Shown here piece after piece: positions 3,159 through 15,816 of a DNA stretch of 55,423 bases. The translations under genes and the position numbers were made by a program. Position 1 is the stretch's first letter; each line of letters starts with the position of its first letter. The stretch comes from Crocinitomicaceae bacterium (GTDB taxonomy: Bacteria > Bacteroidota > Bacteroidia > Flavobacteriales_D > Crocinitomicaceae), in NCBI GenBank assembly GCA_029254025.1, contig JAQWYK010000023.1, positions 1 through 55,423 on the forward strand, read 5' to 3'. Under the pieces are notes generated by a model that ran no database searches, was not told the origin of the DNA, and saw nothing but the letters and a program-made list of their open reading frames with translations.

Positions 3159-4178
3159 ATGGTTTTCAACAAATGGTTCGTACGGATTAATTGGATTACT
3201 CTAGTCTTTATCTACCTCGTGGTTATTGCGGGAAGTTTTGTGCGCATAACAGGAAGTGGAATGGGGTGCCCCGATTGGCCAAAATGTTTCGGAGAATGGA
3301 TTCCTCCTACAGAAGCGAGTTCTTTGCCAGCCGATTATAAAGAAATATACGTTGAGAAGCGCGCCAAAAAAGTAGAAAAGTTTTGTACGATGCTGGATGG
3401 AATTGGTCTATCTGAAACAGCAGAACGTATTCGCTCCGACGAATCCGTATTGTATGAAGAAGACTTTAATGCGCGGAAAACGTGGACCGAATACATTAAC
3501 CGTTTATTTGGTTTTTTAGCTGGAAATGGAATTCTCTTGATATTTCTATGGATCATATTGAAATATCGAAGAAAAAAGTTGGTGTTGGTGGCCTCTATTA
3601 ATTTGTTCATCTTGCTTTTTCAAGCATGGTTTGGTTCTATTGTAGTAGCGACGAACTTGGTACCTTGGACCATTACGATTCACATGCTCTTGGCATTAGT
3701 GATTATCGGTCTCCAACTTTATTTGATAAGGTTGGTGAGTCCTTCGCAGCAGTGCAATATTACCGTTTCCAAAGGTTTTTTCTGGCTCGTCATCCTCATT
3801 TTAGCCATTACCTTTTACCAAATGTTTTTAGGTACACAAGTGCGGGAAGAAATTGATGTTTTACGAAAAACGGGAGTTGAACGAGGAGAATGGAGTCAGC
3901 ACTTTGATTTAGCATTTTATGTGCACCGAAGTTTTTCTTGGCTAGTACTTATTTTAATTACAGGTATGTTTTGGGTGAAACGAAATGTGCGGAATTTACG
4001 TATCATCCATTGGATATTTATTTTTTTAGTGATCGAATTAACTTCAGGAGTGCTATTAGCACATTTTAATATGCCCGGATTAGTGCAAACTGCACATCTG
4101 CTTTTTGCATGCGTTATTTTCGGACTGCTTACTATGGCCGCATTTCGCATGAAATCACAAGTATCTCTGAAGCGGTAA
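3159..4178 (+). CDS. ctaA: Heme A synthase (COX15/CtaA)
   Basis: A 339-residue, roughly eight-TM inner-membrane enzyme that oxidises the C8 methyl of heme O to a formyl group, giving heme A for cytochrome oxidases. The start GSFVRITGSGMGCPDWPKC is diagnostic, with the cysteine pair C37/C43. Histidines in later helices (TIHMLLA, YVHRSFSW, QTAHLLFA) fit the heme-ligand positions. The first helix reads EYINRLFG, so Asn114 sits where many family members have His; as far as I recall this is common in Bacteroidota CtaA. No cytochrome oxidase subunit gene is adjacent. Confidence 0.93.
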   Translation: MVFNKWFVRINWITLVFIYLVVIAGSFVRITGSGMGCPDWPKCFGEWIPPTEASSLPADYKEIYVEKRAKKVEKFCTMLDGIGLSETAERIRSDESVLYEEDFNARKTWTEYINRLFGFLAGNGILLIFLWIILKYRRKKLVLVASINLFILLFQAWFGSIVVATNLVPWTITIHMLLALVIIGLQLYLIRLVSPSQQCNITVSKGFFWLVILILAITFYQMFLGTQVREEIDVLRKTGVERGEWSQHFDLAFYVHRSFSWLVLILITGMFWVKRNVRNLRIIHWIFIFLVIELTSGVLLAHFNMPGLVQTAHLLFACVIFGLLTMAAFRMKSQVSLKR

Positions 4179-4208
4179 TAGGTTACGTTCACAAACGGAA
4201 TTGAAACA

Positions 4209-5609
4209 ATGAAAACAAAGTACATCGATTTAATAGATCAAACATTTGATTTTCCACAAAAGGAATTTTTTCTAGAAGATGATCATTTAATGTTTCATGG
4301 AATCGATTTGATGAAGTTAGTAGAGAAGTACGGAACCCCTTTGAAGTTCAATTATCTTCCTCAAATCTCTAATAATATTGAACGATGCAAGGGATGGTTT
4401 CGCGATGCGATGAATGCGATTGGTTATACTGGGACCTATAATTATTCGTACTGTACGAAAAGTTCACATTTCGCCTTTGTGATGGATGAGGTACTTAAAA
4501 ATAACGTGAACTTGGAAACGTCCTCCTCTTATGACTTAGACATTATTGAGCATTTATTAAACGAGGGCAAGATCTCAGCAGAGCAAACGATTATTTGTAA
4601 CGGATTTAAACAAGATCGATACATTGAGAAAATTGCTGAATTGTTGGCGCGTAAAACGGTAAAGGTGATTCCTGTAGTGGACAATTTAACGGAGCTGGAA
4701 CGATTGACATCATTGACGAAATCTGATATTAATATAGGAGTTCGAATTGCTTCTGAAGAAGATCCAAAGTTTGAGTTTTATACGTCTCGTTTAGGTGTGC
4801 GATACCGCGATATCGTTCCGTTTTATAAAGATCAAATCAAAGGAAATAAGCAAGTAAAGCTAAAAATGCTTCACTTTTTCATTAATACTGGAATACAAGA
4901 CAATGCTTATTATTGGAATGAGTTAACAAAGTCGTTGCGTGCATATGGTCAATTAAAGCAGATTTGTCCAGAATTGGATTCGTTGAACATAGGAGGTGGT
5001 TTCCCGATAAAGAAATCCTTAGCATTTGACTATGACTACGAATACATGGTTCAAGAAATTATGATTCAGGTCAAGAATGTTTGTAAGGAGTTTGGAATTC
5101 CAGAGCCGAACATTTACACCGAATTTGGTTCCTTTACCGTTGGTGAAAGTGGAGGAGCCATCTTTAAAGTCTTAGATCAAAAACAACAGAATGACCGTGA
5201 AAAGTGGAACATGATTGACAGTTCGTTCATGACAAACCTACCAGACACCTGGGCAATTAATCAGCGGTTTATTATGTTACCCCTCAATCGTTGGTCAGAT
5301 GTGTACGAGCGAGTACTTTTAGGTGGCTTAACCTGTGATAGCGACGATTATTACAATTCAGAGCAACATTCGAATGCAATCTATCTTCCTAAGTTTGATC
5401 CAGAAAAACCTTTATTTTTGGGGTTTTTTAATACAGGAGCATACCAAGAGAATATTGGTGGATTTGGAGGATTAAAGCACTGCTTGATTCCGGAGCCGCA
5501 GCACATTTTAATAAAAAGAAACGAAGAAGGAAAAATGGTATCTGATGTCTTTTCCCAAGAACAGTCTTCGGAGCAATATTTGAAACTGTTGGGGTATAAA
5601 AAGCCGTAA
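4209..5609 (+). CDS. speA: Biosynthetic-type arginine decarboxylase, Bacteroidota short form
   Basis: A 466-residue fold-type III PLP enzyme (alanine-racemase barrel plus C-terminal beta domain). Arginine would be converted to agmatine, the first step to putrescine and spermidine. The PLP lysine is K84 in NYSYCTKSSH, the glycine-rich phosphate loop is LNIGGGFP, and the cross-dimer cysteine motif is GGLTCDSDD near residue 380. It is much shorter than E. coli SpeA (about 650 residues) but has the usual size for the Bacteroidota arginine decarboxylase. No agmatinase or agmatine deiminase gene lies next to it. Substrate specificity for arginine is inferred from family resemblance. Confidence 0.82.
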   Translation: MKTKYIDLIDQTFDFPQKEFFLEDDHLMFHGIDLMKLVEKYGTPLKFNYLPQISNNIERCKGWFRDAMNAIGYTGTYNYSYCTKSSHFAFVMDEVLKNNVNLETSSSYDLDIIEHLLNEGKISAEQTIICNGFKQDRYIEKIAELLARKTVKVIPVVDNLTELERLTSLTKSDINIGVRIASEEDPKFEFYTSRLGVRYRDIVPFYKDQIKGNKQVKLKMLHFFINTGIQDNAYYWNELTKSLRAYGQLKQICPELDSLNIGGGFPIKKSLAFDYDYEYMVQEIMIQVKNVCKEFGIPEPNIYTEFGSFTVGESGGAIFKVLDQKQQNDREKWNMIDSSFMTNLPDTWAINQRFIMLPLNRWSDVYERVLLGGLTCDSDDYYNSEQHSNAIYLPKFDPEKPLFLGFFNTGAYQENIGGFGGLKHCLIPEPQHILIKRNEEGKMVSDVFSQEQSSEQYLKLLGYKKP

Positions 5610-14770: not shown

Positions 14771-14798
14771 GAAAGGGCGAATTACTATTCGCCCTTTC
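14771..14798 (-). terminator. Rho-independent-like hairpin after the MBL/rhodanese remnant
   Basis: GAAAGGGCGAAT, a TACT loop and ATTCGCCCTTTC form a perfect 12-bp stem. It lies 24 bases after the stop of the minus-strand pseudogene and before the glycosyltransferase. The T content after the stem on the minus strand is modest. Confidence 0.65.
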
Positions 14799-14822: not shown

Positions 14823-15718
14823 TTACAGCAACGTAGTTGGACAAACGTAATCTGTTACTGCAACGTCGGTATTTTTTATCGCATCAAATCCTCCAACAAC
14901 ATCCACGAAGTTGTCCCATCCGCGTTGTTTTAATATTGAAGAAGCAATCATACTTCGATATCCACCTGCACAGTGAAGGATGAACGGCTCGTCTTTTGGG
15001 AATTCCGCCAAATAATCATTGATCGTTCCAAGCGGCGTATTGTTAGCTCCTTCCACATGTTGAGACGCAAACTCACTTGCTTTGCGCACATCAAATACTT
15101 TTGCACCATTTTTCAAGTGATTTGAGAATTCTTCAGCAGAAATGCGATCTACATGGTCAACTTCTTTACCTTCCGACTTCCAAGCGTCAAATCCTTCATC
15201 TAGGTAGCCAATGGCGCAGTAATACCCTACACGGGACAAGCGAATAATACTCTCTTTTTCTGCTACATTTTCTGTGACTAAAAGATTTTCTTGCTTGATA
15301 TCAGGAATGAGTTCTTCTATCCACATGGCTAAGTTGTTGTCCAATCGAATGTTAATACTACTCTGAATGAATCCTTTTGCAAAACTTTCTGGTGAGCGAG
15401 TATCCAGAATCAATGGTCGAAACTCATTCGATAGGAGCTCAAACGCGGCTCCTGATAATGGCTTCAAACCTAGGTTTAGCTGTTGGACCAGATACAATTG
15501 TTGCATCCGTTTTCTTGGCTAAATCCAAGTGCCCGGAAACAAAATCTGCGTGAAAATGCGTTTCAAATACATATTTCATTTTAGCTCCATCTTTCTCTGC
15601 TCGATCGATGTACGGTTGTACTTCTCTTAATGGGTTCAAATACTGCTACCTCTTCGTTTTTGTCGATTTAGTTCGTTGCACGAGCGATACATCCGGTATA
15701 AATTTGTTCTACTTTCAT
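14823..15718 (-). pseudogene. Decayed MBL-fold hydrolase/rhodanese fusion gene
   Basis: The intact Bacteroidota homologue, as I remember it, is a protein of about 470 residues: a metallo-beta-lactamase domain (persulfide-dioxygenase-like) followed by two rhodanese domains. Here ATG 15718 starts correctly (MKVEQIYTGCIARA), then hits TAA. The true sequence resumes and, after one extra T, continues in another frame (NPLREVQPYIDRAEKDGA, then the metal motif HFHADF). After FEAII about 200 codons are missing and the frame changes again. The distal part still reads as two rhodaneses, ending LHCAGGYRS with the active-site cysteine. That part is open from an in-frame ATG at 15506 to 14823 and might still be translated. 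Confidence 0.85.
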
Positions 15719-15798: not shown

Positions 15799-15816
15799 AA
15801 CTGACTTTTGTCAGTT
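15799..15816. promoter_or_regulatory. Crp/Fnr-like palindrome upstream of the MBL/rhodanese remnant
   Basis: AACTGAC, a TTTT centre and GTCAGTT form a perfect inverted repeat with the TGAC-N4-GTCA core typical of Crp/Fnr-superfamily operators. A degraded copy, GACATTTGTTACAG, lies just to the left. The site centres about 90 bases upstream of ATG 15718. The regulator is unknown. Confidence 0.4.

Follow-up and report, generated by a model that had tools for sequence, protein, structure and literature searches.

The window, the whole stretch of 55,423 nucleotides that was analysed, carries on its minus strand (15718-14823) the remnant of an MBL-fold persulfide-dioxygenase-type / rhodanese / rhodanese gene. 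It belongs to a genome of 2.70 Mb with an estimated completeness of 99.91% and contamination of 0.24%, in which the locus lies on contig C45. The remnant matches, end to end, an intact 470-codon gene (C328; 5026-6438 of locus L059) of G001, the sole congener listed among 240 genomes of the family Crocinitomicaceae. In the alignment, the start codon (15718-15716) and the stop codon (14825-14823) of the remnant both coincide with the ends of the G001 gene. Gene order is the same in the two genomes; 4.8 kb of one flank are 92.7% identical, and the 3′ part of the gene together with the other flank (1.7 kb) shows 85% identity. G001 C328 is an intact orthologue at the same place in a relative, one of the marks by which a pseudogene is recognized. 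The features of the locus are as follows.

15801-15814, no strand assigned: palindrome CTGACTTTTGTCAG, operator-like (motif search, alignment).
14823-15718, minus strand: remnant of the 470-codon MBL-fold persulfide-dioxygenase-type / rhodanese / rhodanese gene (alignment to the syntenic intact G001 gene).
15668-15670, minus strand: in-frame stop at codon 17 (alignment).
15636, minus strand: one extra base, with a frameshift at about codon 27 (alignment).
15442-15645, minus strand: open MBL fragment of 68 codons, with HFHADFVSGH at 15558-15529 (frame translation, Pfam).
14823-15506, minus strand: open frame of 227 aa from a chance ATG, with both rhodanese domains inside (frame translation, Pfam).
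15013-15472, minus strand: tract of high divergence, matching codons ~82-407 in the intact gene (identity windows, synonymous-difference scan).
15446-15463, minus strand: junction of an internal deletion, 517-518 bp being absent relative to G001 (alignment).
15153-15446, minus strand: rhodanese 1, loop without Cys, 8 of 30 highly conserved sites changed (alignment, conserved-site count).
14826-15152, minus strand: rhodanese 2, active-site loop CAGGYRS at 14972-14952, none of 27 highly conserved sites changed (Pfam, alignment).
14771-14798, minus strand: terminator-like hairpin (folding at -19.2 kcal/mol, z -7.1).

An earlier, sequence-only reading of this DNA had described a gene caught in decay and called for alignment to intact homologues. 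Such an alignment, to G001 and further relatives, confirms the lesions: the window copy bears three of them and the sister species is whole at the same place. The nonsense codon is borne out at codon 17, a Tyr codon in all four relatives aligned and a stop in the window copy, as is the one-base insertion. The internal loss, put at about 200 codons, is out of frame as proposed and shorter than proposed, amounting to 518 alignment columns (13 + 505) or, taken from arm to arm, 517-518 bp (about 173 codons). At the deletion junction, CCATTATC matches both arms and may represent microhomology between ancestral arms that have since been lost. Because of the stop, the extra base and the deletion, the pieces of the remnant are spread over three reading frames.

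Pfam finds Lactamase_B plus two rhodanese stretches in the G001 orthologue and in two paralogues of the window genome, and all three carry the complete MBL motif set HxHADxxxxH, HTPGHT, GDTLF and HGAG. The window copy retains only the first, HFHADFVSGH, which is the HxHxD metal motif recognized in the sequence-only reading, and Pfam recognizes part of Lactamase_B in the 68-codon frame; the other three motifs fall in the missing ~173 codons. Since its MBL domain ends after the first metal motif, no enzyme made from the window copy can have a dioxygenase site. Both rhodanese domains are still open, as had been claimed, with two stretches (PF00581) matched in a 231-codon open frame. The active-site cysteine noted in this distal frame is present in the CAGGYRS loop of rhodanese 2, and the loop of rhodanese 1 lacks a cysteine in all five aligned sequences. 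The frame had been credited with 228 residues and an in-frame ATG; it yields 227 aa from that ATG. Some 14 residues at the start of this product come from MBL-coding DNA translated in the wrong frame, so the ATG is accidental and not the ancestral start. Of the attributes of a CstB-like gene, the window copy has two C-terminal rhodaneses, the second with a Cys loop, and it lacks one continuous reading frame (three frames, stop, deletion).

The intact paralogue that the sequence-only reading had advised looking for is found twice, as complete MBL plus double-rhodanese genes on C41 (470 aa) and C46 (468 aa). Comparison with their 1:1 partners in G001 gives dN/dS of 0.021/0.504 and 0.052/0.844 (about 0.04-0.06), values that indicate strong purifying selection on both. 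A third gene of the MBL/rhodanese/rhodanese type is uncommon in the family: matches to the rhodanese part at E <= 1e-25 occur in 216 of 240 family genomes, three per genome in ten of them and one or two in the rest, and the window genome and G001 are both among the ten. Because two complete paralogues remain, loss of the third copy is not loss of the function; persulfide-dioxygenase activity would be supplied by C41 and C46, whose genes are intact. Niche change through loss of sulfide detoxification, which the sequence-only reading had drawn from the locus, is not supported in view of these two intact, constrained paralogues, and the loss of a redundant third copy tells little about niche.

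Divergence from G001 changes abruptly along the remnant. In 120-bp windows, identity is ~92% over 15629-15450, 70-78% between 15509 and 15030, and back to 93-97% over 15029-14729. The segment 15446-15012 has a pS of 0.715 and a pN of 0.129, against 0.118 and 0.007 in the C part (15011-14826), a pS of 0.32-0.33 in the MBL part, and 0.15-0.48 in five neighbouring genes (the glycosyltransferase was left out). Over the same segment, pS between G001 and the three nearest other genera is 0.66-0.79. A two-edge scan of synonymous differences places the tract at codons 82-407, with 0.486 inside and 0.126 outside (z 6.09), equalled in none of 2000 permutations. No comparable tract appears in five other pairs, including window versus G003, where 385-713 of 1000 permutations reach the pair's own value. 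The right edge is sharp; the left one falls just ahead of the deletion junction, by a few codons, and is inseparable from it. The remnant is a mosaic, in which a tract at inter-genus synonymous distance from G001 is flanked on both sides by DNA that has diverged like the neighbouring genes. Elsewhere in the remnant, 9 of 47 aligned bases over 15681-15634 differ from G001 (7 non-synonymous changes, 1 stop and 1 synonymous change, plus the inserted base), and all 67 bases over 15567-15501 are identical; these stretches are perhaps further small exchanged patches.

Neutral decay is expected to treat the synonymous sites of neighbouring blocks alike, so the step in synonymous divergence needs recombination or chimeric assembly. 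Plain vertical decay in the absence of recombination would account for the lesions and the surplus of non-synonymous changes, but a pS jump from 0.12-0.33 to 0.72 inside one gene is not expected from it, and with the permutation result this makes it highly improbable. Chimerism of assembly or strains, whereby alleles of different strains were merged and the mosaic and lesions are partly artefact, fits the sharp edges and the dense changes at 15681-15634, and the G001 record is titled a MAG. Yet the five neighbouring genes compared are equal in length in the two genomes, with zero indels, and the gaps outside the remnant are confined to intergenic DNA or the remnant's leader, which argues against a generally error-ridden assembly. 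The estimated completeness and contamination of the window genome also speak against a chimera, and rhodanese 1, with eight conserved sites altered (a number that no orthologue-like representative examined reaches), requires an altered allele somewhere anyway. An artefact of this kind is thus improbable, though less so than vertical decay.

Decay of the remnant is real but patchy. Changes on the window branch were polarised with the outgroups G003, G016 and G035 and counted by parsimony, and the counts omit unpolarisable changes (23 synonymous and 3 non-synonymous in rhodanese 1, 8 and 7 in the first part of rhodanese 2, fewer elsewhere). Codons 1-29 acquired seven non-synonymous changes, one stop and one synonymous change, and codons 30-75 two synonymous changes and no non-synonymous ones. 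Rhodanese 1 has 22 non-synonymous and 16 synonymous changes on the window branch versus 3 and 13 on the G001 branch; the first part of rhodanese 2 has 2 and 6 versus 5 and 4, and the last 62 codons have 0 and 2 on the window branch. Codons 76-89, with four non-synonymous and two synonymous changes that are in part junction bases, were rejected as a decayed block, three of the five non-synonymous differences between the window and G001 lying in the two codons that adjoin the deletion junction and possibly being right-arm DNA. Residue differences to the three outgroups follow the same pattern: 8-9 in codons 1-29 (0-3 in intact relatives), 29-30 of 98 in rhodanese 1 (9-16 in intact relatives), and no excess in codons 30-75, rhodanese 2 or the C part.

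Sites were counted as conserved when 90% or more of the remaining 122 representatives agree there. The window copy departs from the shared residue at 8 of 30 such sites in rhodanese 1, at none of the 9 in the first part of rhodanese 2 and at none of the 18 in the C part; G001, G003, G016 and G035 depart from it at none. Over the middle segment, 69 orthologue-like representatives (window excluded) comprise 48 with no changed site, 16 with one and 5 with two. Changed conserved sites alone are no proof of decay, since C46, an intact paralogue, has seven over this segment, as does its counterpart in G001. Residues unique to one representative were discarded as a measure of decay; the window copy has 11 in the middle segment, but L054, L152 and L022, whose frames are intact, have 11, 10 and 9. 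Uniform neutral decay was rejected because of the synonymous jump and the patchy residue changes; to explain the undecayed state of codons 30-75 and rhodanese 2, decay needs patchy recombination or selection besides.

Codon-based maximum-likelihood fits in which the window branch had its own omega are unreliable here. In the tract, the window omega is 0.025 against a background of 0.029 and omega = 1 is rejected (p 6e-5), with branch lengths near the upper bound. In the last 62 codons, omega = 1 is not rejected (p 0.51), and in the MBL part the window omega lies at the upper bound of an unconverged fit (p 0.04 versus background). For the whole of rhodanese 2, where the model mixes blocks of unlike age, it is 0.49 (p 0.77 versus 1 and 0.006 versus background), a result that points away from constraint. 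The sequence-only reading had proposed that a low dN/dS in the rhodanese part would mean present use. The low value is there, but the tract's ancestry is older and different: since its divergence is at inter-genus level, the ratio records the tract's past and not its present use. The locus is a clear case in which dN/dS across a pseudogene would falsely suggest use, part of it having probably recombined in from a diverged lineage.

The distal frame might nonetheless still be expressed from the old promoter as a rhodanese-only protein, of 227 aa or from an internal start, with rhodanese 2 under selection and the rest decaying. Rhodanese 2 differs from the three outgroups at 12-14 of 47 and 9-12 of 62 residues, against 10-16 and 6-13 in intact pairs, and has none of the excess seen in rhodanese 1. 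The ratio of non-synonymous changes on the window branch to those on the G001 branch is 22:3 for rhodanese 1, against 2:5 for the first part of rhodanese 2 (Fisher p 0.005, for block boundaries drawn after the data were seen), and the putative operator and terminator are still in place around the remnant. Selection on rhodanese 2 would, however, account for rhodanese 2 alone, while patchy exchange would also account for codons 30-75, 46 MBL codons that are of no use to a rhodanese-only protein and are equally undecayed. The C part, with its low pS, may owe its state to recent exchange; the omega of rhodanese 2, from the fit that mixes blocks of unlike age, is indistinguishable from 1 and above background; and the ATG of the 227-aa frame is accidental. 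The 231-codon frame would be stop-free by chance with a probability of 0.45-0.20 after 20-40 neutral substitutions, which makes its openness weak evidence of use, and the window genome has 13 rhodanese-domain matches. Continued use is unlikely on this balance. Slightly more doubtful is a birth by recombinational amputation, in which recombination cut off the dioxygenase and left a selected stand-alone rhodanese under the old Crp/Fnr-type promoter. If the rhodanese part were kept, a new single-function enzyme would be arising from a fusion by deletion.

The remnant is most probably a recombinant pseudogene of a redundant third CstB-like persulfide dioxygenase/rhodanese fusion gene. An intact third copy once stood here, as in G001, and lost its function in the window lineage through the stop, the frameshift and the internal deletion seen in the alignment. 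The tract at about codons 82-407 most likely arose by horizontal homologous exchange with the allele of a diverged relative. The same event may have left the deletion, one side being joined through homology and the other through microhomology, as in the homology-facilitated illegitimate recombination described in PMC3240628; the deletion may also be separate. With one congener to compare, either the window's or G001's tract could be the replaced one. Trees built from either the tract or the C part group the two; in those of the tract they are sisters and the window branch is long. No donor is found among the 240 family genomes, in which the tract is matched best by G001 (75%). The genome's own paralogues are ruled out as donors, their protein identity to the remnant being 49% and 44%. 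ComEC- and DprA-family genes are present in the window genome and lend weak support to transformation-type exchange; such genes occur also in genomes not known for competence, and the control matches in both searches include E. coli.

The control elements pointed out in the sequence-only reading hold up. The upstream palindrome is real and common to G001 and some other orthologues. CTGACTTTTGTCAG is the sole exact CTGACN4GTCAG in the window genome, and the G001 assembly, which is 84% complete, has the motif at the same place only. Of 140 homologous genes, many of them mutually related (142 were collected, two being short of upstream sequence), 28 have TGACN4GTCA in the 300 bp upstream and none has it downstream or in an internal 300-bp stretch; shuffles average 0.35. 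Several members carry the longer form TGTGACN4GTCACA upstream of Bacteroidota persulfide dioxygenase/rhodanese genes, a TGTGA-N6-TCACA form that would suit a Crp/Fnr-type operator. The palindrome is probably an operator, perhaps of the Crp/Fnr type. Homologues of one Crp/Fnr-like regulator fragment of G023, used as query, account for 35 frames in the loci examined, and motif and regulator are not associated (both in 5 loci, motif alone in 23, regulator alone in 25, neither in 60). The sequence of the downstream hairpin is also found in G001.

Other broken copies exist. Among the matches listed for 59 genomes, all lie in frames of at least 464 aa except the present remnant (G000:C45), G023:C17 and G028:C25; among those listed for 240 genomes, further frames below 400 aa are found in G072 and G107 (contig ends) and G123. 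The G023 copy (L149, 4837-5654) is independent and has an out-of-frame internal loss of ~199 codons (119-317); it adjoins a regulator of Crp/Fnr-like type, also broken, which occupies two overlapping frames (4134-4406 and 4312-4767). In G123 (C143; L166, 1439-2191), detection is limited to residues 220-470, where a TAG interrupts rhodanese 2; an MBL part is missing although the contig runs ~2.3 kb further upstream. Loss of the MBL part thus recurs in other genomes. Among the matches listed in the 59- and 240-genome searches, no kept rhodanese-only gene was seen. The G028 homologue (L066, 5284-6736) is in two frames around residues 198-221, by frameshift or sequencing error, in a genome that is 82% complete. 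One record titled as a Bifidobacterium breve MAG (L111, CALPUN020000039.1) carries this gene type at 61% identity; it is perhaps mislabelled or contaminated, the gene type being otherwise seen here in Bacteroidota.

Mosaics produced by natural transformation, as described in PMC13344027, have exchanged segments that are short and discontinuous, some under 100 bp; that is a laboratory system, whereas exchange at the present locus is read from one sister genome. A narrow full-text literature search found no paper on the decay of a persulfide dioxygenase/rhodanese gene. The broad kind of locus is already known; what makes this one instructive is its mosaic structure together with the unequal decay of rhodanese 1 and rhodanese 2. 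The domain order of the intact gene is that of the persulfide dioxygenase-sulfurtransferase CstB. The G001 orthologue aligns across nearly its whole length with the chains 3tp9 (E 1.1e-71) and 3r2u (E 7.8e-57), with which it shares the order MBL domain, rhodanese, Cys-loop rhodanese. In contrast to these chains and to CstB, which is described in PMC9774590 and PMC12856154, the window copy is out of frame and lacks the MBL domain from about residue 90 onward. Persulfide-oxidising activity of the members seen here would follow from family membership. The persulfide dioxygenase ETHE1 and the PDO-rhodanese fusion PRF (4chl, 5ve3) are related through their MBL part, the sole part that matches, and the remaining rhodanese 2 matches the models of the single-domain rhodaneses GlpE/PspE below the NCBIfam cut-offs.
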